A stretch of DNA of 64,000 bases from Fictibacillus marinisediminis (lineage in GTDB: Bacteria; Bacillota; Bacilli; Bacillales; Fictibacillaceae): positions 3,658,001-3,722,000 of the forward strand of contig NZ_JAIWJX010000002.1 in NCBI RefSeq assembly GCF_023149135.1, read 5' to 3'. A program made the translations under genes and the position numbers. Below the pieces are notes generated by a model. It worked only from the letters and a program-made list of their open reading frames with translations. It ran no database searches and had not been told where the DNA came from. Positions 43,706-64,000 of the stretch are shown here, one piece after another; positions within the stretch are counted from its first letter, which is position 1; every line of letters begins with the position of its first letter.

Positions 43706-44398
43706 TCAAGAATTTAAGAAATAGGAAACCAATGAATCTATTGGCATGATTTGAACACTTTCACAAAACTTATTGCTTTGCGAACAGGCAGTTAGCGCGT
43801 ATTCACTATCTAATAGGTACGTCTTGAGATACCAATTCTCATGCTCAAATACACGCAATCCTTCAACATTTCCCTGCCTAACAGTGGAAAAGCTGTTCAA
43901 TGGGATGGAAAGACCTTTACCGATTGCTTTAATGTAGCTTTCTTTCGCTGTCCAAACTTCAAAAAAACGTTCTTGTTTTTGCTGTTCATCCCAATTACCC
44001 TCAATGTAGTCGTATTCTTCTTGTGCAAAAAACTGCCTGGCAATTTGCAAATCAATAGCATTCTTTTTTTCGATATCTATGCCAACTGTACATTCATCAG
44101 TTATGCAGACCACCCAGTTACCTGAATGTGAGATATTATAGTGCAATTTATTTAATGGAGTTTTTAAAGAAGGTTTTCCAAAGTCAGTCAATTCAAACAA
44201 AATGCTTTTTACAGGAACGGCGAATGTATCGGATGCAATTTTCCTAATTAGCAGCTCGGCGAGCAATCCGCGGAGGCAATCTTCACGTCGTGAAAAAGTA
44301 AAAAGTCTTTGCTTTCTCTCCTCAGTAACAAAGGGCAGTAAATGGGGGAAGTATCTATCTGGAAAACCAACAATAGGCACTGCGTATATTTGCATCAT
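43706..44398 (-). CDS. sfp: Sfp-type 4'-phosphopantetheinyl transferase
   Basis: A 230-residue enzyme with the two conserved stretches of the family: VGIDIEK (~106) and WTAKESYIKAIGKGL (~152), plus FSRREDCLRGLLAE and HYNISHSG. It moves phosphopantetheine from CoA to the carrier domains of the adjacent NRPS proteins, turning them on. It is the last gene of the minus-strand cluster, about 100 bases after the DAHP synthase gene. The start at 44398 has GGAGG six bases upstream. Confidence 0.93.
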   Translation of the reverse strand: MMQIYAVPIVGFPDRYFPHLLPFVTEERKQRLFTFSRREDCLRGLLAELLIRKIASDTFAVPVKSILFELTDFGKPSLKTPLNKLHYNISHSGNWVVCITDECTVGIDIEKKNAIDLQIARQFFAQEEYDYIEGNWDEQQKQERFFEVWTAKESYIKAIGKGLSIPLNSFSTVRQGNVEGLRVFEHENWYLKTYLLDSEYALTACSQSNKFCESVQIMPIDSLVSYFLNS

Positions 44399-44502
44399 GC
44401 TGAACCTCCAATATTTCATAGATAACAGATCTCCTATAGAGATTCATCACAGCTTACCATGTGTGGAAAAATCATTATATAAACTGGAAAATCTTCTACA
44501 GA

Positions 44503-45576
44503 TTACACTGTAACTGCAGCCGGACGAAGCGCATTAATCCATTCGTTGAATTGATCGATGTTCATTTGTTGGGCAGAGTCAGAGAGAGCAACAGCCGGAT
44601 CTGGATGAACCTCTGCCATTACGCCGTCTGCTCCAATCGCAAGCGCTGCTTTTGTTATCGGCAACAAAAGGTCGCGCCGGCCTGTGGAATGCGTCACATC
44701 AACGAAAACTGGCAAATGCGTTTCCATCTTCAAAATTGGCACAGCAGAAATATCAAGCGTATTTCGTGTTGCTTTTTCATATGTTCTGATACCCCTCTCG
44801 CATAGAATAATTTGATCATTGCCCTGAGCAATAATGTATTCAGCTGCATTCATGAACTCCTGCAGTGTTGCGGCAAGACCTCTCTTGAGAAGGACGGGTT
44901 TTTTTACAGCCCCTGCTGCTTTCAGCAAATCAAAGTTCTGCATATTGCGCGCGCCGATTTGAATAACATCAATGTATTGCACAGCTGTCTCAATGTCTGC
45001 AGGATTGACAATCTCGCTGATCACAGCCATATCGTATTCATCTGCTACCTGTTTAAGAATTCTTAAACCTTCTAGTCCAAGTCCCTGGAAATCATACGGA
45101 CTTGTTCTTGGTTTAAAAGCACCTCCGCGAAGCAAACGAATGCCCTGTTTTTTTGCAGCTTCCGCAACTTTTGCGGTCTGATTGTAGCTCTCCACTGCAC
45201 AAGGTCCTACGATAAAGGATTGTGTACCGTTTCCAATCAGCTCTCCTTTTACATTCACAACCGTATCTTCTGGTTTCTTTTTTCTTGATACTAGAAGTTC
45301 CTTGCTGTGCTCGTCCTCCTGCAGAGCAAGGCCTGCTTTGAATATCTCTTTGAAAATATGCTGGATGGTAGATTGTTCGAAAGGTCCATTATTGGCTTCA
45401 TTGATCACACTAAGCATTTTTCTTTCGCGCACCGGATCAAAACGGTATACACCTTGATTTCCTTTCATTTTTCCAATTCCCTGTACAAATCTTCCCCGCT
45501 CATTAATCATCTCTAAAATCTGAAGATTGATTTTATCTACTTTTTCCCTTAGAAAATCTAATTCTGACTGGCTCAT
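44503..45576 (-). CDS. Bifunctional chorismate mutase/DAHP synthase
   Basis: A 357-residue protein with an AroH-type chorismate mutase domain (~1-85, [20 protein letters not shown]) joined to a type I-beta DAHP synthase (~95-357; [43 protein letters not shown] and [12 protein letters not shown]). It commits erythrose-4-phosphate and PEP to the shikimate route. An extra copy beside aryl-acid and NRPS genes raises chorismate supply for the product, as in many siderophore and aminobenzoate clusters. A Fur-box-like site lies about 180 bases upstream. The start at 45576 has AAAGGG upstream. Confidence 0.93.
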
Positions 45577-45752
45577 TCTGTACACCCTTTCTAGTAAAAT
45601 ATTTTTGAATAGTAACGTCTTGCGCAGGTCCTTTCAACCTTCATCATGAATAAAGAGATAAAGCATGAAACTTATAAAAGTATCCTCTTTTTACTCCAAC
45701 TTTCATTTAGTTAAGCAATAATCGGAAAAGTATCGCCTAGAATGTATATTAA

Positions 45753-45771
45753 GAGAATGCTAATCAATATC
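45753..45771. promoter_or_regulatory. Fur-box-like site upstream of the DAHP synthase gene
   Basis: GAGAATGCTAATCAATATC matches the classic 19-base Fur consensus at 16 positions. On the minus strand it overlaps a TTGATT that could be the -35 of the DAHP synthase promoter, with TACATT 15 bases on. Iron repression of the DAHP synthase-sfp unit is the simplest reading. Confidence 0.6.
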
Positions 45772-45823
45772 ACACAGTCTTTGTGAGCGCGAAACGATTA
45801 CAACTTCTCACTACGATAATAAA

Positions 45824-45874
45824 AAATAGCAGGTTAAGTAAAATCCAATACAAATTTTGCTTAACCTGCTATTT
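45824..45874 (-). terminator. Terminator of the upstream cluster operon
   Basis: AAATAGCAGGTTAAG pairs perfectly with CTTAACCTGCTATTT. It lies about 40 bases past the SDR gene's stop codon and splits the cluster into at least two transcription units. Confidence 0.85.
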
Positions 45875-45916
45875 CTGAGTAAAGAGGGTAATTTATGCCC
45901 TTTTTACCTTTTTATA

Positions 45917-46657
45917 TCATCCTACGAACATTGCCCCGTTTGTATCTAGCACTGCTCCACAAACATATGATGCATCATCACTACATAAAAATGATATAGC
46001 CTTGGATTGCTCATTAACGGTGGACGGTCGACCAATAGGAACTCTTTCAATAATAAAGTTTTTATCTTCTTCAGAATAATCATCCCACATTTTTTGTACC
46101 CTATTTGTCAACGTCAATCCTGGCGCGATAGCATTAACTGTTATTCCATAAGGGGCTAACTCAAATCCACATTGTCTTGTAAAACCAATTAGTGCTGCTT
46201 TCACTGATGCAAAATCAGCACCACCAAAAAACGTAGATGTTCTTCCAGCTACTGCTGATATATTGACGATTCTTCCCCATTTAGCTTGCTTCATATATGG
46301 AACTGCAAATTTTGTGCAATAAAAAGCACTTTTAAGATTTAAATCAAAATGTAAATTCCAATCAAGTTCTTCAATTTCTTCAATTTTTTTTGAATGTAAC
46401 GTTCCTCCAACAGCATTAATTAAAATATCTATTCTTCCAAATTGGTTAAATATCTCTTTAAAAGTTAGTTTAACTTGATCTTCTTTTGTAACGTCAACTT
46501 TAAATAATGTTTTATTCGGATCATCATTGAAAGCAATTTTGTCAAAATTTATATCCAATTGAACCACATGGCATCCACACGATTGCAGTTCTTTGACACT
46601 TGCTTGACCTATACCTTCAGCTGCTCCTGTGACAACAGCTATTCTTTTGGTATGCAT
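45917..46657 (-). CDS. Short-chain dehydrogenase/reductase with Phe in place of the catalytic Tyr
   Basis: A 246-residue SDR. VVTGAAEGIGQ is the NAD(P) loop, INAVGG the NNAG equivalent, and Ser134 (NISAVAG) and Lys153 of the triad are present. The Tyr of YxxxK is Phe149 (FASVK). In tilivalline-type and benzoxazole-type pathways an SDR of this kind oxidises dihydro-hydroxyanthranilate or dihydro-dihydroxybenzoate, and the neighbours here fit such a role, but loss of the Tyr argues for altered chemistry. The start at 46657 is chosen for family length; GAGGAGG lies 11 bases upstream. Confidence 0.8.
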   Translation of the reverse strand: MHTKRIAVVTGAAEGIGQASVKELQSCGCHVVQLDINFDKIAFNDDPNKTLFKVDVTKEDQVKLTFKEIFNQFGRIDILINAVGGTLHSKKIEEIEELDWNLHFDLNLKSAFYCTKFAVPYMKQAKWGRIVNISAVAGRTSTFFGGADFASVKAALIGFTRQCGFELAPYGITVNAIAPGLTLTNRVQKMWDDYSEEDKNFIIERVPIGRPSTVNEQSKAISFLCSDDASYVCGAVLDTNGAMFVG

Positions 46658-46813
46658 AGTAAATCTATCCTCCTCATTAGGTTTAGTTATCATGCGAAAT
46701 GATTATTTTTAATTAAAGCTTGTACTCATTTTCGGAGGACAAAACAGATAGGTAGGCCTTGATGATGTAGCTAGTAGACCCACCATCCATTGCTTAAGTT
46801 GTAGTAGTTTAAA

Positions 46814-47416
46814 TTAGATAAGTTCAGGTGTTAGTGTTGAGATTTTATTTAACGAATTGGCAATCAGCTCAAACCCAAAATCTGTTCCAATACTTTCTGG
46901 ATGAAATTGAACACCTTCTATCGGTCTTGTTTTATGTCTAATGCCCATTACTACTTCCTTATTGTCTATACAGGTAGTAGAAGCACATACAACTAAATCA
47001 TCCACATTATAAGTGTTTTCTATTGCTAAAGAGTGATATCGAACAACATTAATTGGAGATGGAATCCCTGAAAAAACACCTTTAGAATCATGAATTATTC
47101 GGGATTTTTTTCCATGTTCTATTGTTGGGGCATGTACAAGCTCCCAGCCAAAGAATTCTCCTATTGCTTGATATCCTAAACACACACCAAAAACTACTTG
47201 GCTATCTTTGACTTTACTGAGAATATCCAAATATCCATGATCGCTAGGTGTGCCTGGACCTGGACCAAGAACTAAAACATCCGGTTCCCAATTATAATAA
47301 CTTTCCAGAGGATCTTCATTCACTCTTACTACTCTAGTAGTAGCACCAAGTTTTTCATAATAGTGTGCAATCACGTATACAAAACTGTCAAAAGCATCTA
47401 CTAATAAGACCTTCAT
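46814..47416 (-). CDS. Anthranilate/aminodeoxychorismate synthase glutaminase subunit
   Basis: A 200-residue class I glutamine amidotransferase. Seen are the LGPGPGTPSDHG loop, the nucleophile in FGVCLGYQAIG and the His-Glu pair in VQFHPES. It supplies ammonia to the partner synthase encoded just upstream (gap 15 bases). By itself it cannot be told apart from TrpG or PabA; the partner decides. GGGGT lies eight bases before the start. Confidence 0.9.
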   Translation of the reverse strand: MKVLLVDAFDSFVYVIAHYYEKLGATTRVVRVNEDPLESYYNWEPDVLVLGPGPGTPSDHGYLDILSKVKDSQVVFGVCLGYQAIGEFFGWELVHAPTIEHGKKSRIIHDSKGVFSGIPSPINVVRYHSLAIENTYNVDDLVVCASTTCIDNKEVVMGIRHKTRPIEGVQFHPESIGTDFGFELIANSLNKISTLTPELI

Positions 47417-47431
47417 ATTTATTTACCCCAT

Positions 47432-48832
47432 TTATAATTTGTTTTTGGGATCAATTGCTTTTGCAAAAGATTTTGTTTTAATACCTGCTTCATCCCATTC
47501 TGCAGATGGAATTGAATCTGCAACAATGCCTGCTGCTGCGCACAACTTATAGTTTCCTGGGTTTCCTATAATAGTTCTAATTGTAAGAGCAAAAACTCCT
47601 TCACCGTTGGAGGTAAAGTATCCTCCAAAACCACTGTATAGACCACGTGGAGTATCCTCAAGCTCAGCAATTATCTCCATTGCTCTAACTTTTGGCGCTC
47701 CTGTCATAGTGCCTGCAGGAAAATTGGAAGAGATTAGATCCCAGATATCAATCCCCTCTTTTATTTTTGTCTCCACAGTCGATACCAAGTGATCAATATC
47801 TCCATAAGGTTCTAGTTTCATTAGATTTGTGACCTTTAAGCCACCTGATAATGCACAACGAGCCAAATCATTTCTTGCTAAATCAACAAGCATGAGATGT
47901 TCCGCAGATTCCTTAGGAATTTCATTTAAAGGAGTATCCCTAATATCATTTCTTGACATTGTACCTGCAATGGGACGAACTTGAGCTACATTATCTTTAA
48001 TTCTTATCATTAATTCTGGACTTGAAGATATGACATGTTGTTTATTTAACTCAATATAATACATATACGGGGAAGGATTTACTAAAGACAATCGTTCATA
48101 CAATTCTAATGGAGGAATATCCGCACTTGAAAAAGTAGTTCGACACAATTGTACTTGATATATTTCTCCATCTTTAATGTATTGCTTTGCATGATTGACA
48201 GCTTGTAAAAATTTTTCTTTATCTGTTACATCAATCATTTTCCCTTTATCCCAATTTACTTTTGATTTTTGCATATAATTCTCTTTGATAAATGACGTTA
48301 ACTCTTTTCTTTTATCAATTATCCTATCATCGCAAGATAGACTTTTAACAGTTGCTAAATTACGTTCCTTATCAACTGAAACAACATTTTTGTAAACTCG
48401 AAAAACAACCTCGGGTTCAGCCTGATCAATTTTTATATTTGGTATATCTTCGACAAATCGCGCAGCACTATAAGAGAGCATAAAGACTATTGGAAAAGAT
48501 TCCGGCAAATTTAATAAGTTAGTTATCTCTCTAAAACGTTCCCATAGGCTTGAACCTTCTCGATTTAGAATTACATTTACAGGGTCATTATATATATTGA
48601 AAAACTCTTTTGATTCAATTTTCCAAGTTCCGTCTACTAAAGTTATCTCAAAAAGCAAGTCAACCATAAAAGTAGTGTCCGCTCCGTCAACTTCTTGAAA
48701 CCCACTGCTTGTTTCAAAAAGGGCTGAGTTTGGATATAAAGTTAATAGTTGTTTACGAAGTATGTCTATAGTTAATACTTCTGAAACTGTGTATTCATTA
48801 ATTCTCCAATTAATTGCTTCAGTTTGTATCAC
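47432..48832 (-). CDS. Anthranilate-synthase-type chorismate-converting subunit
   Basis: A 466-residue chorismate-utilising enzyme of the TrpE/PabB family: EIYQVQLCRTTF, SSSPELMIRI, RPIAGT, LVDLARNDLAR and FPAGTMTGAPKVRAMEII. The PIAGT motif has Ala where aminodeoxychorismate synthases keep Lys (PIKGT), so the product should be anthranilate or the intermediate ADIC rather than p-aminobenzoate. Dependence on a glutaminase partner rules out a salicylate synthase. GTG start with GGAGAT eight bases upstream. It follows the PaaK-like gene by six bases. Confidence 0.88.
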   Translation of the reverse strand: MIQTEAINWRINEYTVSEVLTIDILRKQLLTLYPNSALFETSSGFQEVDGADTTFMVDLLFEITLVDGTWKIESKEFFNIYNDPVNVILNREGSSLWERFREITNLLNLPESFPIVFMLSYSAARFVEDIPNIKIDQAEPEVVFRVYKNVVSVDKERNLATVKSLSCDDRIIDKRKELTSFIKENYMQKSKVNWDKGKMIDVTDKEKFLQAVNHAKQYIKDGEIYQVQLCRTTFSSADIPPLELYERLSLVNPSPYMYYIELNKQHVISSSPELMIRIKDNVAQVRPIAGTMSRNDIRDTPLNEIPKESAEHLMLVDLARNDLARCALSGGLKVTNLMKLEPYGDIDHLVSTVETKIKEGIDIWDLISSNFPAGTMTGAPKVRAMEIIAELEDTPRGLYSGFGGYFTSNGEGVFALTIRTIIGNPGNYKLCAAAGIVADSIPSAEWDEAGIKTKSFAKAIDPKNKL

Positions 48833-48838
48833 TTTTTA

Positions 48839-50155
48839 TTATCTCCAATCCCTTATGCGAGCAAATTTCCAAGATACGTATGCCCCTGTTTCCGTTTGAG
48901 CATCTAAACTATCCTGTATTCTCAAATCTACCTTTGCCTTAAACAACTCAGTTAGTTTTTTCTCAATAACACTGACATCTATGTTTGTTTGCTGAGTAGT
49001 GACAGACAGTACTACACTGTCTTCCCCAGAGTCTAATTTCGTAATATCAAATTTATATCCCTCTACCTTGTTTAAACTATTCAATATTCGTGATTCGATC
49101 TCCGCCGGAAGATACTTTTCCCCACTTATTGTAACTATGTCGTCTACACGACCGGATATTTTTAGAACTCTGCTACAACTTCCGCATTTACATGACGCAG
49201 CTTCATTTATAGACGCAAGGTCACCAGTTCTAAATCTAATTAAAGGTTTGGCACCTGGTACAAGCATAGTTATGCAAAGTTCACCAACATCTTTTTGAAG
49301 ACCTTCTATAGGAACAATCTCAATAATATAATTTGTTTCTGATATGTGAAGGTTCCCCTCTGTACAACCTGTTGCCAAAGCATGTATTTCTTGTGAGCCA
49401 TATAATCCATGAGTACAAGCTGCATCCCAAATTTCAGATATATTTCTTAACATTTCCGGTGTACATAATTCACCTAAAACAAAAATTTGTTTAACTGTAC
49501 TTTTTCTCGGATCAATTCCCTTTCCTGCATACAATCGAGCTAGAGATAAGGCTATAGCAGGTGAACATATTAATGCTTTAACTTTCAAGTTTGTAATCAG
49601 CTCCGAAGCCTTTTCAATTCCGACCCTTGGACTTTCTGGCCACAGTTTTACATATGGAATTCCCAAATCTCGGCATATCTCAGCATAAGTATCCCCAAAT
49701 GCATATAATTCAGATGGTCCCATAATTGCAGTGAGTGCTTGAGTGGTGCCAAATGTTTCTTGATAAACATCTGCCATTGCCTTATGCACGAACAAGCCAC
49801 TTGTATTAATGTCAATTGGTGCTCTAGGACAAGGTGTTGGGATACCTGTTGTTCCTGTAGTTTCGTAATAAGTGCCTATCTCATTCATACCGAGACTGCA
49901 AATATCCATTCCCACTTTCCTGAGTTCATCTTTTGTAGTAAAGGGGATAGATTTTAAACTTAATTGTTCGATAGATTTTGATATTTGTACATTTTTTAAT
50001 TGACTAGAATAATATGGTGATTTAGTTGAAACATAGTCTAATATATGAGTTAATGAATTTTGGTTTTGAGTATGTACCTCATCAAGAGTTACGGTACCAT
50101 CTAAAAAGTTATTAATTCTTCTCGACCATTTATCATTGATAGACACTGTATTCAA
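48839..50155 (-). CDS. PaaK-like aryl-CoA/aryl-AMP ligase
   Basis: A 438-residue adenylate-forming enzyme of the phenylacetate-CoA ligase branch: YYETTGTTGIPTP is the ATP loop, LYGSQEIHA the A5-like region, IRFRTGD the A7/A8 region and GEKYLPAEIE the C-terminal start. A four-Cys cluster (ASCKCGSC plus CTEG upstream) near 325 recalls structural zinc sites. In other clusters relatives activate anthranilate or hydroxyanthranilate. Here, directly beside the anthranilate synthase genes, it is the best candidate to load the aryl starter onto a carrier protein or CoA. TTG start with AGGGGAG eight bases upstream. Confidence 0.82.
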   Translation of the reverse strand: MNTVSINDKWSRRINNFLDGTVTLDEVHTQNQNSLTHILDYVSTKSPYYSSQLKNVQISKSIEQLSLKSIPFTTKDELRKVGMDICSLGMNEIGTYYETTGTTGIPTPCPRAPIDINTSGLFVHKAMADVYQETFGTTQALTAIMGPSELYAFGDTYAEICRDLGIPYVKLWPESPRVGIEKASELITNLKVKALICSPAIALSLARLYAGKGIDPRKSTVKQIFVLGELCTPEMLRNISEIWDAACTHGLYGSQEIHALATGCTEGNLHISETNYIIEIVPIEGLQKDVGELCITMLVPGAKPLIRFRTGDLASINEAASCKCGSCSRVLKISGRVDDIVTISGEKYLPAEIESRILNSLNKVEGYKFDITKLDSGEDSVVLSVTTQQTNIDVSVIEKKLTELFKAKVDLRIQDSLDAQTETGAYVSWKFARIRDWR

Positions 50156-50254
50156 TAGTCAAGCTCCCCTCTCTATACCTTTAATAAGTTATTTCATAAT
50201 ATTCAAAAAATTATTTGTAGGAAATGTCTTCAAACCGTTTATAGAAGTATGCTT

Positions 50255-50323
50255 AGAACAGCTCTAATCATGACTACAAAGTACGTAATTAACTTTTGAT
50301 GATTTATTAAATAGAGCTGTTCT
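50255..50323 (-). terminator. Inverted repeat between NRPS and PaaK-like genes
   Basis: AGAACAGCTCTA pairs perfectly with TAGAGCTGTTCT across a ~45-base loop. It may attenuate or end the upstream transcript. There is no T run directly after it. Confidence 0.45.
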
Positions 50324-50351
50324 CATATCCCCTACTATTTGCCAAAGTCCT

Positions 50352-52706: not shown

Positions 52707-52718
52707 AAAGATTGTCTC

Positions 52719-53945: not shown

Positions 53946-53985
53946 TTTGTCCTCCTTTTTTAGGATGAAAAAATCATTTTCTAAA

Positions 53986-55101: not shown

Positions 55102-55164
55102 GATAAATATTCCTTTCGTATGTCCCTATTTAGTATTTCAAAAACTTTTTTAACAAAATACGAA

Positions 55165-58100
55165 CTAAACTCTCTCTTTTCTCAGATCTTCAACAACAGA
55201 GTTAAGTTCACTAATTCCTATTTGAGAAAACATTTCAGTAAGAACGTTAATTGTTTCGCTATCGTCCCCTTGGTTTATATAAGAACAAATTTTTTCAACG
55301 GTTGGATTATTAAACAGCGTTGATAAAGGCATACTTATGCCGAGCATCTCCTCGATTCGATTATTCAATCGAGTTGCACTTATTGAATCGCCACCCAAAT
55401 CGAAAAAATTGTCCAACACGCCGACTCGTTCTAGATTGAGCACATCGCCCATTAACGAAGCAACAATAGCCTCTAATTCCGTTCGTGGAGTAACATATTC
55501 GATTAAAAAGTCACCAGTAGTATATTCTTTCGCCATCTTAGTTAATTGTAACCGATCAATTTTACCATTCTCGCTGAGTGGTAGTTTTTCAAGAATCTCA
55601 ATGTGTGACGGGATCATATAATTTGGTAATTTCTTTTCGAAAACTTCTTTAATTAAACTTGGGTCAAGTAAGTGCTTGTCTTCAGGTCTTGCCTCTACAA
55701 ATGCTACAATCCATTTATGTTCAGTTTCTCCTTCGACAACAACAGCTACAGCTGAACGGACTCCTTCCTGCATTTTAAGGCTTGCCTCTATCTCGCCTAA
55801 CTCAATTCGATGCCCGTTTATTTGTACTTGAAAATCATTACGACCAAGAATCTCAATATTTCCATCAGGCAGATACCGGCCCATATCACCTGTAGCATAC
55901 ATTCGTTGGCCAGTTTTTGGATGTTTGATAAAGCGTTGATTAGTCAAAGCCTCATTACGCCAAAATCCCTTAGCAAGACCTATTTCACTACCATCATACA
56001 TCTCACCTGGAACCCATACCGGCTGATCTGAAAGATGCTTATCCAATATGAAATATTTATGATTTGTTGTTGGACATCCATAAGGAATACTAACCCAGTT
56101 CGGATCGACATCCTCAATTGGGTAACTAATAGACCATACGATGGTTTCAGTCGGACCTCCTGCGCTTAGAATATTCACTTCAGGAGCGATATTACGTAAA
56201 CGATTAGGCATTGTAATAGGGATAAAATCTCCTGACAGAATAACCTCTCGAAGACTTTTCAGTTGAAGCTCATGCTTACCTTCAACATATGATAACAAAA
56301 TGTCCATGAATGCCGGAACCGAATTCCAAAACGATACATCATGTGCACGGATCATTTCCACCCAATGCGCTGGTTCTGGGTTCGGTGTAGGGTCAGGTAC
56401 AACGTTACCTATGCCACATCCTATTGCAAACACGTCAAAGACAGAAGCATCATGTTGTAGAGATGAAATTGCGAATGCCCGATCTCCTTGACTGAGGTTA
56501 CATCGTTGCTTAATATCAAACAGCATATTAACCACACCGCGATGTGCAACCATTGTGCCCTTAGGCTTTCCAGTAGATCCTGATGTGTAGATAACATATG
56601 CCAGATCATCAGATGTTTGAATACTCTCTAAAGGACTAGAATCAACTTCATCAAAATCGCAGTCCACACAGAATCGTTGCAATCCTTCTGGCCACTGTAG
56701 TCGCTGATTTACTTCTGACTGGGTAAGTATTATTGACACTTCCCCTTCCTTCAGCATGAAATCTAGTCGCTCTTGCGGCATACTCGGATCGATAGGCAGA
56801 TAAGCTGAACCAGCAACGAGTACTCCGTAAACTGCAGCATACTGCTCCCACCCTTTGTCCATTACTATTGCTACCAACTCATTTGGCTGAGCACCGTTCT
56901 CTCGAATCTTTCGACCAATCTGATTTGCACGACAACTTAGCTCAGAATATGTAAGTGTGCTAGAACTTGAAATCACGGCCATTTTGTTTGGCTCATTTTG
57001 TGCAACTTGCATCATCATTTCATGAAGCATAAGGTCGGGTACGTCCCCATCTGTTGCGTTGATTACATCATGTTGTTCGATCTGCCATTGAGGTAGCATC
57101 TCGAAGCTTTCTTTACCCCAGTTCTCATCATGCTCAAGTTGACGTAAAATGTTGCAATAAACCTCGAACATATCATCAAGCATACCTTCTGGAAAGTGAG
57201 CATCTAAAGAATCCCAATTGAATCGAAGCTCGCCTTCAAATTCAGATATTTGAAAGTCCAATAGTACTTGTGGCGTCTGAGTGATAGCATGTACTTCACG
57301 GCCAAAGCTTGTCATTTCATGTCGTGTCGGGTTCCCCAATAAGCTTGTAACGACAATCGGCGCTAATGCACCTACACCCTTCTGTAAACGCATTAACTCA
57401 CGCAAAACGCGGACACCACTAAATTGACGATGTTCTAAATCTCTAATTACTTGTCTTTGTATCGACTTAGCACGGTCAGTAAAATTGCCATCACTTTTTT
57501 CGATAGATACTAACAGATTATTTGTAAAGTCTCCAAGTACATTATTGATCTGAGGATGGACTGGTTTTCTGTCATATATAGGGAAATTGATGGTGAAGGC
57601 GTCATTCCCGCTCCATTTCCTTATTACTTCAGCAAAGGCAGAAACCATTATTATCGATGGCGTTACTCCGCGACGTCGCCCTTGAGCCTTAATTTCAGAC
57701 CACTCTTTCTCTTTAACTACATATTCACGTGAATTGAACTTGATCTCAGTATTTGGATCAATTGCTGATATTTGCGGGAGAGAAGCAGCTGGTGGCAGAT
57801 TAGGTAGGCGTTCCATCCAGTATTGTTTTGCCAACTGATACTCTTCTGTATCTTCAAGTTCTGACTCAACTTTGGTTATATAGTCTCTAAAAGTAACCTC
57901 TAGTGCAGGAAATACGTGATCAGGGTTATTGTAAACCTCTATCAAATCTGGCAGAATAATTTGAAAGTAACTCCAGGCATCCATAATCAGTAAATCAATG
58001 CTGGTGAACAATCGATAATAATTATCTTTTAGTTTAGCTACAACTACCTCTAATAACGGCCATTTGTCAGCAGGCAAAACTTGATGAGACATACGTTCCC

Positions 58101-58440
58101 GGATTTCGCTTAAAATTTCTTCTACTTTATCATCTGATTCCTCTCTTAGATCAACAACTTGTACCTCAAAAGGCGGAACCTCTCGAAGAACCTGCTGTGT
58201 TTCATCATGTGAGTGAAATACCGCTCTTAACATGTCATGTCTTTCGATGAGTTTTAACCATGCATTCTTGTATGCTTCAAGATTTAAATCATTCGATTCG
58301 TGCTCACAGTACGCATGACAACCAACATCACCAAACTCCACCGCATTGCCGCGCCCTATTAGTAAAGCTTGCTGCATATCACTAAGTCGAAATGGCTCGT
58401 ATCGATTTTCTTCATCGTGCTTTAATATTTCAGTATTCAT
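55165..58440 (-). CDS. NRPS module: heterocyclization-adenylation-carrier (Cy-A-PCP)
   Basis: A 1091-residue single module. The first domain (~1-440) has D149-LLIM-D154-AW-S157, the DxxxxDxxS signature of heterocyclization domains, so it should condense and cyclise a Cys, Ser or Thr to an azoline ring. The adenylation domain (~480-970) has IYTSGSTGKPKG, QHDASVFDVF, SAGGPTETIVW, YATGD and ENGKIDRLQL. Pocket residues by eye (D-A-F-A-I-S-A-V-W-K) are not a code I know. The carrier domain at ~1000-1060 has DLGGDSISA with the attachment Ser. No oxidase or methyltransferase insert is seen, so the ring should remain a thiazoline or oxazoline. AGGAG precedes the start. Confidence 0.9.
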   Translation of the reverse strand: MNTEILKHDEENRYEPFRLSDMQQALLIGRGNAVEFGDVGCHAYCEHESNDLNLEAYKNAWLKLIERHDMLRAVFHSHDETQQVLREVPPFEVQVVDLREESDDKVEEILSEIRERMSHQVLPADKWPLLEVVVAKLKDNYYRLFTSIDLLIMDAWSYFQIILPDLIEVYNNPDHVFPALEVTFRDYITKVESELEDTEEYQLAKQYWMERLPNLPPAASLPQISAIDPNTEIKFNSREYVVKEKEWSEIKAQGRRRGVTPSIIMVSAFAEVIRKWSGNDAFTINFPIYDRKPVHPQINNVLGDFTNNLLVSIEKSDGNFTDRAKSIQRQVIRDLEHRQFSGVRVLRELMRLQKGVGALAPIVVTSLLGNPTRHEMTSFGREVHAITQTPQVLLDFQISEFEGELRFNWDSLDAHFPEGMLDDMFEVYCNILRQLEHDENWGKESFEMLPQWQIEQHDVINATDGDVPDLMLHEMMMQVAQNEPNKMAVISSSSTLTYSELSCRANQIGRKIRENGAQPNELVAIVMDKGWEQYAAVYGVLVAGSAYLPIDPSMPQERLDFMLKEGEVSIILTQSEVNQRLQWPEGLQRFCVDCDFDEVDSSPLESIQTSDDLAYVIYTSGSTGKPKGTMVAHRGVVNMLFDIKQRCNLSQGDRAFAISSLQHDASVFDVFAIGCGIGNVVPDPTPNPEPAHWVEMIRAHDVSFWNSVPAFMDILLSYVEGKHELQLKSLREVILSGDFIPITMPNRLRNIAPEVNILSAGGPTETIVWSISYPIEDVDPNWVSIPYGCPTTNHKYFILDKHLSDQPVWVPGEMYDGSEIGLAKGFWRNEALTNQRFIKHPKTGQRMYATGDMGRYLPDGNIEILGRNDFQVQINGHRIELGEIEASLKMQEGVRSAVAVVVEGETEHKWIVAFVEARPEDKHLLDPSLIKEVFEKKLPNYMIPSHIEILEKLPLSENGKIDRLQLTKMAKEYTTGDFLIEYVTPRTELEAIVASLMGDVLNLERVGVLDNFFDLGGDSISATRLNNRIEEMLGISMPLSTLFNNPTVEKICSYINQGDDSETINVLTEMFSQIGISELNSVVEDLRKERV

Positions 58441-58515
58441 GAGCGTTTATCTCCTTTTTAATTTCAGGACTTTTAGATTTAAATTGGACAACTGTTTACT
58501 GACTAAGTTAGTGAA

Positions 58516-59088
58516 TCAGAGAATAGTTTCTTTCTTCATTTGTGCTATATTTAGTGCCAACTCTGATAGTACGCTTGTCCCCAGCATAAGTTCAAAATCC
58601 ATGTATACTCCTAGATCGCGTTCAATCGCATAGTGCATTTGGGCTAGAAGGAGTGAGTGTCCTCCTAATGCGTAAAAATCATCTTCAACACTTATTCTTC
58701 CCACTGGTAGAAACTCTCCCCATAGCCTCACGAGGTACTCCTCAATAGAATTGCTTGCCTTAACGTAGACAGATTTCTGTTTGAACAATTTGTCATAAAT
58801 ATCTAACAATTCACTTGGGGTGTTATTTTTATCAATCGAATCGACTATAATTAACTCCTCAGGAATTGGTACACTCGGTGATGTCTCACGCAGTTTACGT
58901 CGTAACAAGGAAAAGGCCATGGTATCACTTGCAGGAACAAGTAAAGCGATCAATCGTTCACTTGAACCTTTCCCAACCTGAAACACTTTGACTTCATTCA
59001 CATCATCTAAAGCTTCAAATGAAGATACTATATGTTGGTACTGCAATGCTTCTTCCTTTTCTATAATCTCTTCGATCTCGTCGTTCAT
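58516..59088 (-). CDS. Free-standing carrier protein with vestigial adenylation tail
   Basis: A 190-residue protein. Its last ~80 residues are a carrier domain (DDFYALGGHSLLLAQM, attachment Ser in GGHS). The first ~100 residues look like the small C-terminal subdomain of an adenylation domain, but the A10 lysine motif is lost (DSIDKNNTPSEL), so it cannot adenylate. It could carry the substrate of the carrier-less adenylation protein or the aryl group activated by the PaaK-like ligase. The second ATG is preferred (GGAG six bases upstream). Confidence 0.78.
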   Translation of the reverse strand: MNDEIEEIIEKEEALQYQHIVSSFEALDDVNEVKVFQVGKGSSERLIALLVPASDTMAFSLLRRKLRETSPSVPIPEELIIVDSIDKNNTPSELLDIYDKLFKQKSVYVKASNSIEEYLVRLWGEFLPVGRISVEDDFYALGGHSLLLAQMHYAIERDLGVYMDFELMLGTSVLSELALNIAQMKKETIL

Positions 59089-59157
59089 GTTATTCTCCAT
59101 AGTCTCTTTTATTTTTTATGATTATGTTTAGTCCGCCCTGATTGTTTGTCTAGTCTA

Positions 59158-59874
59158 TTAAGCATTAATAATTGGCATTAGGGTGTTCGCTGATTTCTGT
59201 ACTGAGAAGTGATCTCCATCTATAAGATACTCTGTTACGTCACTATAACCTCGCCAGCCCAGTAGTTCATCAAAAGGCATGCCCTGATCATCACTCCATG
59301 CAAATGTTGTGATTGGACAGGATATTTTACGCACCGGAGGTTGATAGCTATCACACATTGCGAGATCTTTACGAAGAAGCTGGATAGCGTGTGGCATTAG
59401 TATCGATAATAGTTTAGGGTCACTCAACTCTGAAGTATTACTAAGCAAGTTGCTCGCTAATTCATCATCCGACAAATCCAAATGTACGGGTCCTCGATGG
59501 CTCGAATGAGGTGCTCGTGATGCAGAAACGTAAAAGTGATCAGGCATACGAACGTTTCGTTCCATAATCTTTAAAATGAGATCATATGCTATTAACGCTC
59601 CCATGCAATGCCCAAATATGACATATGGTCGATCAAGATATGGGAGAAGTTCGTTAAGCAAATCGTTTGATAGACTTTCTATTTCACTGTATTGTAAATC
59701 AGCAGATCTATTCTCTCGTCCAGGAAGTTGCACTGGACATATCTCAAATTTTTCAGATGCTGTTGGCCAGAGACGATATGCCGAGGCGCCAATCCCGGCA
59801 AATGGTAAACAAAATAATCTTGCTTTCGCATCGGGATTGAGTTCTCGAAGTAACCACCTTGATGATTGTGTCAT
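59158..59874 (-). CDS. Type II thioesterase with Cys nucleophile
   Basis: A 238-residue alpha/beta hydrolase of the NRPS editing type (LFCLPFAGIGASAYRLWP, PVQLPGREN, then DGDHFS with the catalytic His). The nucleophile elbow reads FGHCMG, so Cys90 replaces the usual Ser. Such Cys thioesterases exist and often favour slow acyl release or unusual ring closure. Its start overlaps the stop of the preceding C-PCP gene by four bases (ATGA), so the two are translationally coupled. Confidence 0.88.
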   Translation of the reverse strand: MTQSSRWLLRELNPDAKARLFCLPFAGIGASAYRLWPTASEKFEICPVQLPGRENRSADLQYSEIESLSNDLLNELLPYLDRPYVIFGHCMGALIAYDLILKIMERNVRMPDHFYVSASRAPHSSHRGPVHLDLSDDELASNLLSNTSELSDPKLLSILMPHAIQLLRKDLAMCDSYQPPVRKISCPITTFAWSDDQGMPFDELLGWRGYSDVTEYLIDGDHFSVQKSANTLMPIINA

Positions 59875-61820
59875 AATTTCACGTCCACCAATTCTTGTGA
59901 TTCGCTATTATCTTCGATACTATGAGACTTTTCTTGCTGCTCAATCAGCTCTAAAACTTCAGCTTCGGTCAATTGTTCGATACGATCTAGCAGAGATAGT
60001 GCATGATCTTGATTTAGTGTGTTATTTGTCAATTGATCAATTACATTGGCAAGAGAATAAACGGTTGTATTTTCTAGAAAATTCTGTAATGTCAAATCAA
60101 TACCAAATTGTTCACGAAATTGCATTACCATCTGTGCAGCCATAACAGAGTGGCCACCAACAGCAAAGAAGTCGTCCGTTCTTTCTATTTGATTGATACC
60201 GAGTTCATTTGACCATGCTTTGGCAATCGTAAGTTCAGTAGTAGACATTTCTGATTTGGAAGAAGCACTCGTTAGTAATTCTGATTGACTTATAATTGCA
60301 CTTTCGCTTACCGTTTTACTTTCTCTAATTGGCTGTTTATACATCGTCGGGCAAAGAGCAGATAAGCGTAATTCAGGTTGCTGAGCTATGGCTTCGACAA
60401 TCTGCACATAATCATGAGATAAAGCTTCTGCAGTTTCCCTTCGAAAGAGATCAGTACAATAGTCAAATCTCCCAAAGAGACCATCAGGTTGTTCGTCAAT
60501 AGCTAGTTCAAAGTCGAATTTCACGGTTGGTGTTGAGACCCCATCCCAGCTTATATCAAGATCAGAAGTCAATTTAATATCATTATCTAGTAGAGGGGTG
60601 CTACCATAAATAAACATGGTTTGGCACAATGGCGGTCGTCTATGATCACGTTCTGGTGCAAGCTCTTGAATTAATTTACCAAACGGGAGATCCTGATGTG
60701 CAATAGCTTCTAGTGTCACGTGACGTACTCGTTCCACCAACTCAATAAATGTCGGATCTCCAGACATTTTCGTACGAATCACGATGATATTTACGAAAGA
60801 ACCAATGAGAGATTCTACCTCTGATTTGGTTCGCCCGGTAATTCCAGTACCTAGAACACATTCATTTTGACCTGTACGACTTACAAGTAATAATTGATAG
60901 GCCGCTAGCAATATAGTAAATGGTGTGACACCACAACGCTTGCTGATCTTTGATATATTATCTGCTGTTTGTTTCGAAATAGAAAATAGACAGGTGTCAC
61001 CTCTCATACTCTGAATAGCTGGTCGCGTAAAATCTGTTTCTACTCTCAAAGGCTCACAGCCATCTAGTTGCTCTTTCCAATAATTCAAGATCCGTTCATA
61101 CGTCTCACCACTAAGATTTTCTCTTTGCCAGATAGCAAAATCACCAAATTGAATAGGAAGTTCGTCAAGATCAATTTTCTCATCACGATAGAAAGAGCCA
61201 TATAGAGATATTAACTCGCGAATTATTATACTTAGCGACCATCCATCTGCTATTGCATGGCTACCAACCCAAAGTAAAACATGGTCGAGTCCAGCCTCAT
61301 CAAGCTGTAAAAGATGTACGCGATAAAGCGGCCCGTCAGCAAGATTCAATGTAGTTTGCATGAATTTTTTTGCAAACTCCATAGCTGAGTTTTGAGGATC
61401 CTTCTCTTTACTCAAGTCCGTTACAGGTAGTTCCATGGAACGCACCGGTGCTATGACCTGAACTACCTTCCCTTCACGCAGCTGTAGGGTTGTTCTCAAC
61501 GATTCATGTCGCTTTTCAATCTCGTTCAGAGATGCAGTTAGTGCCGTCACACTAAGCGGCCCTTTTAAATTGAAACGAAATGGGACATTGTAAGTTGGTA
61601 AATCAGGAGAGAGCTGTTCCAAATACCACATTTGTTCTTGCCAAAACGATGCTATTGGCTCTGTATACGCTACACGTTGATGAGTTAATTTCTCTTTAGA
61701 TAAATTTGCATGACTAGTTGCTTTACCAGTTCGTAAACGAGCAAGAACTTGTGATCGTTCCTGAGAGGAGAGTTGACCGAGTGTTTTAATGAAATTATCA
61801 ATATTTGATAAATTGTCCAC
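59871..61820 (-). CDS. NRPS protein: condensation domain plus carrier (C-PCP)
   Basis: A 649-residue protein. The condensation domain (~50-480) has SHAIADGWS where HHxxxDG is expected: the first His is Ser, but the catalytic second His, Asp and Gly are present. Other core motifs (GSFVNIIVIR, HQDLPFGKLIQEL) are normal. A linker leads to a carrier domain (~525-605) with AVGGHSVMAAQM. It lacks its own adenylation domain, so its carrier is loaded in trans or receives a chain. GTG at 61820 is preferred since GAAGG lies seven bases before it; the ATG six codons earlier has no ribosome binding site. Confidence 0.87.
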   Translation of the reverse strand: MDNLSNIDNFIKTLGQLSSQERSQVLARLRTGKATSHANLSKEKLTHQRVAYTEPIASFWQEQMWYLEQLSPDLPTYNVPFRFNLKGPLSVTALTASLNEIEKRHESLRTTLQLREGKVVQVIAPVRSMELPVTDLSKEKDPQNSAMEFAKKFMQTTLNLADGPLYRVHLLQLDEAGLDHVLLWVGSHAIADGWSLSIIIRELISLYGSFYRDEKIDLDELPIQFGDFAIWQRENLSGETYERILNYWKEQLDGCEPLRVETDFTRPAIQSMRGDTCLFSISKQTADNISKISKRCGVTPFTILLAAYQLLLVSRTGQNECVLGTGITGRTKSEVESLIGSFVNIIVIRTKMSGDPTFIELVERVRHVTLEAIAHQDLPFGKLIQELAPERDHRRPPLCQTMFIYGSTPLLDNDIKLTSDLDISWDGVSTPTVKFDFELAIDEQPDGLFGRFDYCTDLFRRETAEALSHDYVQIVEAIAQQPELRLSALCPTMYKQPIRESKTVSESAIISQSELLTSASSKSEMSTTELTIAKAWSNELGINQIERTDDFFAVGGHSVMAAQMVMQFREQFGIDLTLQNFLENTTVYSLANVIDQLTNNTLNQDHALSLLDRIEQLTEAEVLELIEQQEKSHSIEDNSESQELVDVKL

Positions 61821-61929
61821 GTAGATACCTTCTTCCATTAATTTACTGATTTCAACTTTTTATTTTATAAAAGGATTGGCTTGAGACATAAAAGCAAACA
61901 ATCTTAAATTCAACTTATCTTCATGCCTA

Positions 61930-64000
61930 TTAATTCACCTTATAAAAAAGCTTTCTAGTAAGAAAACGCCATAACTTCGTTATACCTCGACTGTTATTTC
62001 TATCTAATGAAAGTTCTTTCGCTAGTAAACTAGCTAATTGCATGGCTTCATGTTTAACGAAATAGTGATTTCCTCTAGAAATCCTTGAACTCTTAACATT
62101 TGTTGCAAAGGCTTTCCAATCCGCAGCACGATTTTCCTGTTTATTTGTTATGACGTCACATTCTCCTAATACACAATGAAGTGGTGTACGTAACTTGATA
62201 GATGGTTCTTTATAATTTTTCTCGAAAAACCTTGCATGCTCTAACATGTCATGTCTTACTGCAGCGATAATTTCTTTAGTCTCTCCGTAATTGAGCGCCC
62301 CGTCGAATCCACCAATTGACTGAAGATACATCTCCAACTCGTTTTCTGAAGTCGAATTACTGCGTTCTCTAGATCCCACTGGATCAATATCAGGTAAAGC
62401 AGCACCTACATACAAAGTGTGAACCTCACGTCCATGCTTTTCCAACAATTGCGTCAGATAAACTGCTATGGTTGATCCTGAACATTGTCCATAAATTGCT
62501 ATCGGACCATCAATCTTCTCTATAATTTCACGACAACATTTCTCAGCTATATCTTCCCAAGACATATACGATTCACCACGTCGTCCTGGATCATGTCCTG
62601 GTAAAGCAACTGACCACAGTGCTATATGGGATGGAAGTGAATCAGCTAACGACTGATAGACAGTAACATTCCCACCTCCATAAGGAATACACACCAACGA
62701 AATGTTATGATCTGACTCAGGTGTTAAACGATAGAGTAACTCAGCTTGAGATGAGACTGAACTTCTTAAATAGTTCGCTATCATACGAACTGTGCGCTGT
62801 TTAAATAATTCTACAACAGGTAGTCCCCCTTCAATGCTTCGAGATAACCGAATTGCAGAGAATGAATCGCCACCTATTTCAAAGAAATCATCATCAATTC
62901 CTATATCATCAATTCCTAGAATCTGCTTCCACGTATTTAGAATACTTGCTTCCAGTGTGTCTGTTGGCTCTTGTAGAGTCGCTTCGTTTATTTGAGGTGT
63001 AATCTTTTTCAAAGCAAGACGATCCACTTTTCCACTTCGATTTTTTGGAAGACTATCGATTCCTCTAAAGGAAGAAGGTATCATATATATCGGTAAAATT
63101 TGTGTGAGATACTCGCGCAAATTTATCTCTACGACATCTCTATCCATTACGGGCACATAATACGCTATCAATGATGAGCCTCGTTTATCATTGGAATTTA
63201 CAACTACAACAGCTTCTTTGATATCTTTGTAAGAACCTAGTGCAGATTCAATATCACTCAAATCCACACGTAACCCATGAACCTTAGCTTGAAAATCTAT
63301 ACGTCCGATAAGTTCAAGATTGCCATCTTTACGCCAACGCGCAAGATCACCTGTTCTAAAAAGTCTTTCTGGTTGATTTCCCCGTAAGTTATAATTGATA
63401 AAGCGTTTTTGAGTAAGTTCTGGCAGACCAATATATTCACGTGCTAGCCCAACCCCTCCGAGGTATAGCTCGCCTGGAACCCCTACAGGTGTTGGCTGCA
63501 TCCATCGATCAAGAACATAGACATGCTGGTTGGCCATTGGTTTACCGTATGGAATACTGGTCCAATGTTCTTCAATTTTATCAACCGAATAGATTGTTGA
63601 GTGAATTGAGGATTCTGTAGCACCACCAAGAGCAATAACTTTTACATTAGGTGCATACTTACGTAGTCTCTCGGGTATTGATACTGGTATCCAGTCCCCT
63701 CCCAGTAAAACTAAACGTAAATTTGGCAAATATATATCATTAGCCCGTTCAAGTTCTTCAACTAGTAATTCAAGTAAGGCGGGTGCTGAGTTCCAGATTG
63801 TGACTTCATTTTTACGCATCAAATCTAACCAATGTGTAGGTTCTCTCAAGGAATCAGAATCTGGGATCACTAACGTTCCTCCCGCGATTAGCATTCCCAT
63901 CGTTTCATAGACAGACATATCAAAGCTAGGTGATGAAAGAAAAAGTATCCGATCTTCTTTACTCACTGCAAATCTTTGATTTATATCCAGAAGATTATTT
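61930..64000 (-). CDS. NRPS module: adenylation (partial)-carrier-thioesterase, runs off the window
   Basis: At least 690 residues, open to the right edge. It holds the second half of an adenylation domain (SPSFDMSVYETM A4, LGGATESSIHSTIY A5, FRTGD A7, SGKVDRLALKK A10), a carrier domain (FFEIGGDSFSAIRL) and a C-terminal thioesterase. The thioesterase elbow is IYGQCSGST, so its nucleophile is Cys, like that of the separate type II enzyme; the catalytic His is in RGNHYFVKHEA. Pocket residues by eye are D-M-Y-A-L-G-G-I-H-K, not assigned. The terminal thioesterase suggests that this protein releases the product even though its gene comes first in the operon. A basic tail (RFLTRKLFYK) ends the protein. 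Confidence 0.88.
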   Translation of the reverse strand, partial: NNLLDINQRFAVSKEDRILFLSSPSFDMSVYETMGMLIAGGTLVIPDSDSLREPTHWLDLMRKNEVTIWNSAPALLELLVEELERANDIYLPNLRLVLLGGDWIPVSIPERLRKYAPNVKVIALGGATESSIHSTIYSVDKIEEHWTSIPYGKPMANQHVYVLDRWMQPTPVGVPGELYLGGVGLAREYIGLPELTQKRFINYNLRGNQPERLFRTGDLARWRKDGNLELIGRIDFQAKVHGLRVDLSDIESALGSYKDIKEAVVVVNSNDKRGSSLIAYYVPVMDRDVVEINLREYLTQILPIYMIPSSFRGIDSLPKNRSGKVDRLALKKITPQINEATLQEPTDTLEASILNTWKQILGIDDIGIDDDFFEIGGDSFSAIRLSRSIEGGLPVVELFKQRTVRMIANYLRSSVSSQAELLYRLTPESDHNISLVCIPYGGGNVTVYQSLADSLPSHIALWSVALPGHDPGRRGESYMSWEDIAEKCCREIIEKIDGPIAIYGQCSGSTIAVYLTQLLEKHGREVHTLYVGAALPDIDPVGSRERSNSTSENELEMYLQSIGGFDGALNYGETKEIIAAVRHDMLEHARFFEKNYKEPSIKLRTPLHCVLGECDVITNKQENRAADWKAFATNVKSSRISRGNHYFVKHEAMQLASLLAKELSLDRNNSRGITKLWRFLTRKLFYKVN

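Follow-up and report, generated by a model that had tools for sequence, protein, structure and literature searches.

Reading of the host genome past the edge of the window, a 64,000-nucleotide stretch of Fictibacillus marinisediminis DNA, revealed a gene cluster of ~35 kb that extends from window position 43706 to ~78600 and comprises about 22 genes (Table 1). The gene set is intact and was apparently acquired by this Bacillus-like host. The original prediction described an azoline-forming NRPS cluster with a chorismate-derived aromatic starter, thioesterase release and a DNA-protection gene, all of which was borne out. The genes it named are real and open, lie close to the predicted coordinates, all on the minus strand, and match their families above the Pfam cut-offs with the exception of the PaaK-like ligase. 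The cluster was correctly recognized as cut by the window edge; the remainder was found past position 64000 and extends to about the far position given above. The protein crossing the edge contains the predicted A, PCP and TE domains together with a C domain that had been missed. The A protein described as carrier-less has no carrier, but its N-terminus resembles the second half of a condensation domain, matching the Pfam model from position 195 to 414 of 456 (E 5e-4, 19.3 bits against a cut-off of 30.6).

Table 1. Features of the cluster in window numbering; positions above 64000 are past the window edge.
Feature	Position	Strand	Match
Sfp-type 4'-phosphopantetheinyl transferase	43706-44419	-	PF01648 65.6 bits, PF22624 53.8 bits
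Bifunctional DAHP synthase/chorismate mutase, extra copy	44503-45585	-	NF009239 637 bits
SDR	45917-46693	-	PF13561 169 bits
Glutamine amidotransferase subunit, TrpG type	46814-47416	-	PF00117 155 bits
Anthranilate-synthase-I-type subunit	47432-48832	-	PF00425 259 bits
PaaK-like acyl-AMP ligase	48839-50155	-	alignment to relatives; 57.7% identical to L021:12477-13835
Truncated C + A, no carrier, code DMFSLAATYK	50352-52706	-	weak C match + A domain
Class V PLP enzyme	52719-53945	-	PF00266 32.9 bits
AlkZ-like (HTH_42) DNA glycosylase, QAQ motif	53986-55101	-	PF06224 203 bits
Cy-A-PCP, FmoA3-like, code DAFNISAVWK	55165-58440	-	6lta, top PDB match, 844 bits
Free-standing PCP, longer N-terminal region	58516-59100	-	PF00550 36.7 bits; GGHS site
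Type II thioesterase	59158-59874	-	PF00975 87 bits
C-PCP	59871-61838	-	PF00668 308 bits, PF00550 54 bits
C-A-PCP-TE, code DMYNLGLIHK, 1367 aa	61930-66033 (crosses edge)	-	
MFS exporter	66100-67365	-	
SHMT	67421-68794	-	
Isochorismatase-fold protein	69316-69807	-	
282-aa orphan protein	69952-70800	-	
SagB-like oxidase	70808-71545	-	
Cy-A (Cys)	71623-74358	-	
Hidden PCP, 84 aa	74552-74806	-	
A-PCP-Cy (starter)	74912-78601	-	

The DAHP synthase has a second near-complete match elsewhere in the host genome (C2:2132737). The TrpG-type subunit is 57-65% identical to the copies in relatives, and its TrpE-type partner, which shares 53-56% identity with the copies at benzobactin loci, is predicted to be an ADIC synthase of the PbzF/XvbF type, the benzoxazolinate pathway using either the SgcD/PbzF or the PhzE type. 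The PaaK-like ligase showed no Pfam match at 1e-3 and matched NCBIfam models below their cut-offs; it shares 57.7% identity with the X. szentirmaii gene identified by strain and position as XsbC, and 54-59% with the copies at other loci. The Zn tetrad (C-x5-H, C-x-C) and a C-terminal TETGAY(I/V)SWK Lys extension are present in all 10 rows of the ligase alignment, two of which are from one genome. The ligase is thus predicted to be a benzoxazolinate cyclase of the XsbC type, the role of XsbC being known from deletion and expression in E. coli as described in PMC10098953.

The pocket string of the starter A domain, GMVLLAVVVK, is identical in 10 of 10 domains, its own and those of nine of nine relatives that include the xsb and xvb strains. 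The pocket codes were read off a MAFFT alignment with core motifs as anchors, position 4 of the starter code being the least certain (T when judged by eye). The domain lacks Asp235, as in benzobactin clusters. The SHMT, just 46-49% identical to benzobactin-locus SHMTs, has TTEGYPGRRFH, compared with TAEG..G(R/K)RYH in relatives, and is of the PbzB type, in which T and H replace the two Tyr of GlyA (PMC10098953). The XsbC-like ligase, the shared starter pocket and the PbzB-type SHMT motif together indicate that the starter is most likely benzoxazolinate and not the aminobenzoate originally proposed. Half of the cluster therefore has a known match in the benzoxazolinate/benzobactin family, through its ligase, TrpE/TrpG pair and starter A domain; the earlier statement of no obvious known match stands only for the product, none with this gene set having been found in a literature search.

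The SDR is proposed, from its sequence and distribution, to replace the SgcG/XsbA-type dehydrogenase that aromatises ADIC. Four other Firmicute clusters contain it at 60-62% identity, in each case also in place of SgcG/XsbA, and it was found in none of four Gram-negative genomes at E<=1e-40. The step from ADIC to OPA rests on this predicted role because the host genome contains no close copy of the FMN/[Fe-S] dehydrogenase SgcG/XsbA (best match 25% identity).

An aminobenzoate starter, either anthranilate or 3-hydroxyanthranilate, made by a tilivalline-type route is unlikely. Tilivalline-type clusters also have a DAHP synthase, an SDR and an anthranilate-type synthase, on which the original comparison was partly based, and an isochorismatase-fold gene lies beyond the window edge. 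This sole isochorismatase-fold gene appears unlike the PhzD type needed for the 3-hydroxyanthranilate route, and no PhzD-type enzyme was found within the cluster. The protein retains a Cys within GADAIACV, or GADATACV in the Paenibacillus copy, presumably at the position of the Cys of cysteine hydrolases; its only NCBIfam matches are weak, to biuret amidohydrolase and nicotinamidase, and the top PDB match is a 'putative isochorismatase' at 30 bits. Moreover, the Halobacillus and G306 stretches have the SDR without an isochorismatase-fold gene, the xsb and xvb proteins have an identical starter pocket, and the XsbC-type ligase would be left without a role. ADIC is itself the branch point to tilivalline (PMC10098953); nevertheless, we rejected the route because no PhzD-like enzyme was found in the cluster and on account of the identity of the ligase and A domain.

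The starter protein lacks the second A domain (2-hydroxymethylserine) of the benzobactin protein, and the T2 carrier remains as a separate gene. This hidden PCP gene is preceded by a Shine-Dalgarno-like GGGAGG, and its product shares 66% identity with T2 of protein P0066 across 97 aligned residues. Loss or damage of the second A domain is confined to one branch of the tree (12 of 12, SH-aLRT 100), a clade to which the window belongs; in Paenibacillus sp. GSMTC-2017, T2 is fused behind a truncated second A domain and a second, separate 97-aa copy is present. The plain benzobactin-type clusters of the Firmicutes G306, Halobacillus karajensis and Clostridium DSM 8431 share the SDR and the core but keep the second A domain with TSGSTG (codes DMFAVACNWK, DMFAIACNWK and DMFAVASNWK), and the added modules of the window cluster were not found in the stretches examined. 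By its sequence, the cluster is a descendant of a Firmicute benzobactin cluster, its own second A domain gone and the carrier surviving as the hidden 84-aa gene. For bimodular proteins of Actinobacteria, of which P0119 is an example, identity is 36% in the starter part and 49% in the second module. Bacillothiazol, suggested as the parent by the B. velezensis name of P0070, was dropped because G306 has a protein 99.3% identical to P0070 and its cluster is of the plain benzobactin type.

The top PDB match of Cy-A is BmdB, and its pocket code, DLFNLSLIWK, is one that we take to be of the Cys type. Its Cy domain lacks the Ser of DxxxxDxxS (DLLITDGLG), which is kept in Paenibacillus. The oxidase reached 63 bits, short of the 78.4 bits set as the curated SagB cut-off, and is distant from solved relatives (43 bits or less); a search for a close relative in the G306 genus gave at best 28% identity, in 2 of 41 genomes. 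The 282-aa orphan has no Pfam or NCBIfam match, and its model (pLDDT 75.8) has an N-terminal strand/helix pattern and a stretch EIGPLVF that may resemble those of RiPP-recognition/E1-like proteins. The top match of Cy-A-PCP is a structure we take to be FmoA3, and its pocket is close to, but differs from, DAYNVSSCWK of the comparison domains; an azoline module for an alpha-substituted serine is predicted. The truncated-C/A protein is expected to load a carrier in trans. Neither its pocket nor that of C-A-PCP-TE has a confident substrate, the latter code being presumably Thr-like. The PLP enzyme falls in a clade of its own, with 17 homologues in the database at 65-96% identity and the next at 44% or less. 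A profile search with it extends to structures of cysteine desulfurase, cystine lyase and PvdN, and another genome of the host species lacks the gene. The GVQAQ of the AlkZ-like protein aligns with identical letters in AlkZ (5uuj), and a (Q/H)-aliphatic-Q motif defines the AlkZ (AZL) glycosylases as described in PMC9040887. Self-resistance is proposed for this glycosylase.

Building on gene content, homology, motif and pocket conservation and distribution, all directly observed, we infer one cluster making a benzoxazolinate-capped azole/azoline peptide, with a probability of about 0.74. The extra DAHP synthase would raise chorismate supply, the TrpE/TrpG pair would form ADIC, the SDR would aromatise it to 3-enolpyruvoylanthranilate (OPA), and the PaaK-like ligase would close the ring of benzoxazolinate, to be loaded by the A domain of A-PCP-Cy. 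Cysteine would be activated by Cy-A for the hidden PCP, and A-PCP-Cy would condense and cyclise it to a thiazoline, although ring formation is not certain because the homologous Cy-like domain of PbzD was proposed to form an ester and not a ring (PMC10098953). Oxidation to the thiazole would fall to the SagB-like oxidase, perhaps assisted by the 282-aa protein. The SHMT would provide an alpha-substituted serine for conversion to methyl- or hydroxymethyl-oxazoline by the FmoA3-like module, and two further residues would come from C-PCP, trans-loaded by the truncated-C/A protein, and C-A-PCP-TE before release by the TE. The tally of six carriers, five A, three Cy and two C domains fits a six-unit chain with one A domain serving two carriers. 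In the course of evolution, the second A domain of a Firmicute benzobactin ancestor would have disappeared and modules for Cys and alpha-serine would have been taken up.

The product is probably DNA-directed, an activity likewise deduced from the genes: the MFS protein would export it and AlkZ would clear the lesion it causes in host DNA. Aryl-azoline NRPs are often siderophores, but a product that is mainly a metal chelator is improbable, as no receptor, ferric reductase or ABC import family was found among the 25 proteins scanned with Pfam, and the MFS exporter and catalytic-motif AlkZ are present instead. Two independent adjoining clusters, one benzobactin-like and one JBIR-34/tambromycin-like, would account for the different nearest relatives of the parts; this was rejected as highly improbable because 19 of the 21 annotated cluster genes occur together in Paenibacillus GSMTC-2017 in changed order (19 of 23 proteins compared, 53-78% identical; Sfp, DAHP synthase and two flanking genes unmatched), and the genes are interleaved in the window and the benzobactin second A domain was lost or damaged in a single clade. 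A decaying remnant, suggested by the excised A domain and altered Cy of Cy-A, is equally remote given open genes, otherwise intact catalytic motifs where checked and the 19 genes conserved in Paenibacillus.

A wider reading, offered tentatively and open to more doubt than belief, is a new class of DNA-reactive product combining the benzoxazolinate intercalator known from C-1027 and the benzobactins with a thiazole/oxazoline peptide. A Firmicute benzobactin synthetase would have been broken by deletion of the second A domain, with the carrier kept as a free gene, and the gap refilled by trans-acting modules; the SDR would have taken over the SgcG step in Firmicutes; catalytic AlkZ would have replaced the motif-less HTH_42 protein in this clade because the product now alkylates DNA; and a RiPP-type SagB oxidase and E1-like partner would act on an NRPS-bound thiazoline. 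More generally, a clade coupling benzoxazolinate to azoles, guarded by a lesion-removing glycosylase, would represent a new DNA-targeting scaffold and would exemplify an assembly line rebuilt in stages, with the A domain passing from full length with damaged motifs through truncation to excision. It also raises the question of whether an SDR is able to replace the FMN/[Fe-S] enzyme SgcG.

The cluster shares the ligase, starter A-PCP pocket string, Cy-like domain, PbzB-type SHMT motif, HTH_42-family protein and MFS with the benzobactin clusters xvb and pbz and the benzoxazolinate cluster xsb (PMC10098953, PMC9177418), and the TrpE/TrpG type with the benzobactin clusters but not xsb. In contrast to benzobactin clusters, it has no second A domain, an SDR instead of the FMN dehydrogenase and a catalytic-motif AlkZ instead of a motif-less HTH_42 protein, and adds the Cys, alpha-serine, C-PCP, C-A-PCP-TE, SagB-like, orphan and PLP genes. 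Compared by description, JBIR-34/35 (FmoA3) and tambromycin have an FmoA3-like Cy-A-PCP, an SHMT for alpha-methylserine (PMC10098953) and an AlkZ-like gene (PMC9040887), all with counterparts in the window; they carry a chlorinated indole (PMC9040887), whereas no halogenase family was found among the 25 proteins scanned, and benzoxazolinate genes are not reported for their clusters in the passages covered. Cy-A for Cys is shared with the bacillamide synthetase BmdB, and a discrete oxidase with bacillothiazol (nrs), by description (PMC10327441). The ashimides and C-1027 of the Actinomycetota have benzoxazolinate in common with the predicted product, and the ashimides also share an SHMT, AsmD, as described in PMC10098953. 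Just four benzoxazolinate producers were known before the benzobactin survey, and the moiety is the means by which C-1027 intercalates DNA, as described in PMC10098953. Here this rare bicyclic benzoxazolinate head, as in the benzobactins, is most likely joined to a chain of sulfur and oxygen rings, a combination for which no described product was found.

The cluster was followed past the window edge in the host genome (4.57 Mb, 4 contigs; the window is G000:C2:3658001-3722000). Every gene listed in the original prediction was found on the minus strand as an open frame with family matches. The PaaK-like protein, predicted to be a ligase of the XsbC type, matched NCBIfam models below their cut-offs and gave no Pfam match at 1e-3. 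The anticipated truncation at the window edge was confirmed: the right flank sequence joins the window exactly and the cluster continues there, which allowed the right boundary to be placed and a total of 22 genes to be counted. The edge gene, described as A-PCP-TE, contains all three domains; the protein is actually C-A-PCP-TE. The genome has two PF08769 copies, of 150 and 75 bits; the weaker, the Spo0A-type response regulator adjoining the cluster, is a possible regulator of the cluster. Another type II thioesterase is encoded near the cluster end, possibly as part of it.

Positions of features of the cluster (window numbering, continued past the edge) and of two Paenibacillus GSMTC-2017 genes (locus L013)
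Feature	Position	Strand	Remark
Whole cluster	43706-78601		Sfp to end of A-PCP-Cy
C-A-PCP-TE	to 66033	-	spans the edge; the genes down to A-PCP-Cy follow in order
MFS			past edge
SHMT			past edge
Isochorismatase-fold protein			past edge
282-aa orphan			past edge
SagB-like oxidase			past edge
Cy-A			past edge
Hidden PCP (T2)	74552-74806		separate 84-aa gene
A-PCP-Cy	to 78601		starter protein
Spo0A-type response regulator	78990-79793	+	past edge
Type II thioesterase	80437-81129		past edge
L013, T2-like carrier	~207261-207554		separate 97-aa frame
L013, flavodoxin-like protein	~215370-216008		212 aa

Matches to 19 of the 23 window-side proteins (SDR to A-PCP-Cy) were found within one 35-kb stretch of Paenibacillus GSMTC-2017, reordered and with 53-78% identity, while Sfp, DAHP synthase and two flanking genes had no match in that stretch. 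The PLP gene, the one gene tested across the host genus, was present in 1 of 7 genomes, that of the host; a second genome of the host species was without it. The ligase was detected at E<=1e-90 in 2 of 398 genomes of the class, the host and a genome with a plain benzobactin-type cluster (G306), and A-PCP-Cy at E<=1e-60 in 2 of 149 relatives, the host and a match of 27% identity. The cluster is real and intact, and was apparently gained by horizontal transfer. Bacillus halotolerans, Mammaliicoccus and a single record labelled Staphylococcus aureus also have homologues of the starter protein, the PLP enzyme or the orphan; those of the latter two (P0078, P0199, P0200 and, by a circumstantial link to P0200, P0017) may reflect contamination or mislabelling. 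The 212-aa Paenibacillus protein, flavodoxin-like by eye, adjoins the isochorismatase-fold gene, and the starter protein P0073 is annotated with flavodoxin-type domains that its length and tail put ahead of A-PCP-Cy.

Related loci were sought by protein search with A-PCP-Cy and by a scan of genome contigs, in which the pattern matched 33 stretches. Nine loci were confirmed: Paenibacillus GSMTC-2017, Xenorhabdus vietnamensis, Xenorhabdus szentirmaii, Brenneria (two in one genome), Pseudomonas (two), Halobacillus karajensis and Clostridium DSM 8431. The Brenneria sp. hezel4-2-4 copies (L015, L016) lie near the ends of two contigs, the result of either duplication or an assembly effect. The ligase was present in all nine loci, TrpE and TrpG with >50% identity in eight (X. 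szentirmaii had only a 27% TrpE-like match) and SHMT in seven; Paenibacillus has an SHMT copy just beyond its locus. Since Bacillus, Paenibacillus, Halobacillus and Clostridium are listed as carriers of such clusters (PMC10098953), the family is already known from Firmicutes. The xvb (benzobactin) cluster is that of X. vietnamensis DSM 22392, and the xsb (benzoxazolinate) cluster that of X. szentirmaii DSM 16338 (PMC10098953). The strain and the order of the genes served to equate those of the X. szentirmaii locus with XsbA-E. Deletion of the XsbC ligase showed it to be required for benzoxazolinate, and E. coli with XsbC, XsbA and ADIC synthase produced benzoxazolinate (PMC10098953). The gene equated with XsbC shares 57.7% identity with the window ligase, and a C-x5-H and C-x-C pattern with a C-terminal TETGAY(I/V)SWK was conserved in 10/10 aligned rows, two from one Brenneria genome. 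The starter A domain has Gly instead of Asp at the amino-binding site, with a pocket string identical across the ten domains compared.

Copies of XsbA at least 80% identical to the query were found in 4/4 Gram-negative genomes (one the query's source; the second Pseudomonas left out). The host, Paenibacillus and Clostridium genomes gave matches of 22-28% identity only; Halobacillus gave none, nor did G306 in a search without a positive control of its own. The window SDR is 60-62% identical to copies in four other Firmicute clusters (Paenibacillus, Halobacillus, Clostridium, G306) and had no match at E<=1e-40 in the four Gram-negative genomes. On a simple reading, the SDR would be a non-orthologous replacement of the XsbA-type enzyme. 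ADIC, the proposed TrpE/TrpG product, carries no free hydroxyl on its ring, and as the substrate of an SDR it would be unusual.

Benzobactin synthetases have the layout A1-T1-Cy-A2-T2, with A, T and Cy denoting adenylation, carrier and cyclization domains. A2 with the TSGSTG motif was retained in 31 of 44 aligned homologues; P0089 is a fragment, and in 12 A2 is missing, truncated or, in P0066, complete in length but mutated in its motifs. All 12 fell on a single branch (SH-aLRT 100) beside the intact Firmicute proteins P0070 and P0084 in a quick tree of 43 rows with some long branches flagged. The Paenibacillus GSMTC-2017 synthetase has lost the front of A2 through an in-frame deletion and retains a fused T2; the T2-like frame directly behind this synthetase is a duplicated carrier. 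The separate T2 of the host cluster, with a GGDS site and GGGAGG upstream, is 66% identical to T2 of P0066 across 97 residues.

The Cy-A protein adjoining this carrier has the pocket DLFNLSLIWK, which we take to be a cysteine code, and its best solved relative is BmdB; both point to cysteine as the predicted substrate. The oxidase belongs to the nitroreductase family (45 bits vs cut-off 23.5), scored 63 bits against the SagB model, below the cut-off of 78.4, and matched McbC weakly (24 bits). The top PDB match of Cy-A-PCP was 6lta, presumably FmoA3, with 844 bits, followed by LgrA (712, two stretches) and BmdB (631); the first two pocket positions are D-A, as in DAYNVSSCWK domains. By BLAST it is 49.4-49.6% identical to the second modules of actinobacterial bimodular P0119 and P0112, 45% to Streptomyces Cy-A-PCP such as P0172 and 37% to the benzobactin module. 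SHMT has the T..H motif of PbzB type, with 7qcw as top PDB match (431 bits; next 395); the PbzB structure is 7QWZ (PMC10098953). Cy motifs read DLLIADAWS in A-PCP-Cy, DLLIMDAWS in Cy-A-PCP and DLLITDGLG in Cy-A, where the final Ser retained in Paenibacillus is lost. Two C domains have their His, and one rear half of C was weakly matched. With six carriers and five A domains plus the ligase, the domain count fits benzoxazolinate and five residues, one A domain loading two carriers.

HTH_42 matches occurred in eight of the nine loci, and Pfam confirmed the four checked (Halobacillus, Brenneria, Clostridium, one Pseudomonas). Alignment of the window AlkZ to AlkZ 5uuj (88 bits) shows that GVQAQ is retained, the QAQ conforming to the motif definition of AlkZ-type (AZL) glycosylases (PMC9040887). 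At the same aligned place the HTH_42 proteins of six benzobactin-type loci (L014, L015, L017, L018, L020, G306) read GVYST, GIYSS and similar; these are AlkZ-family matches without a Q-x-Q or Q-x-D motif there. Since the window and Paenibacillus proteins keep QAQ whereas the benzobactin-type proteins are without it, the comparison suggests that the product may damage DNA.

No described combination of benzoxazolinate/benzobactin genes with thiazole and alpha-serine azoline modules was found in the open-licence papers searched. Overall, the cluster belongs to the benzoxazolinate/benzobactin kind, as a variant that has recruited modules of both these types.
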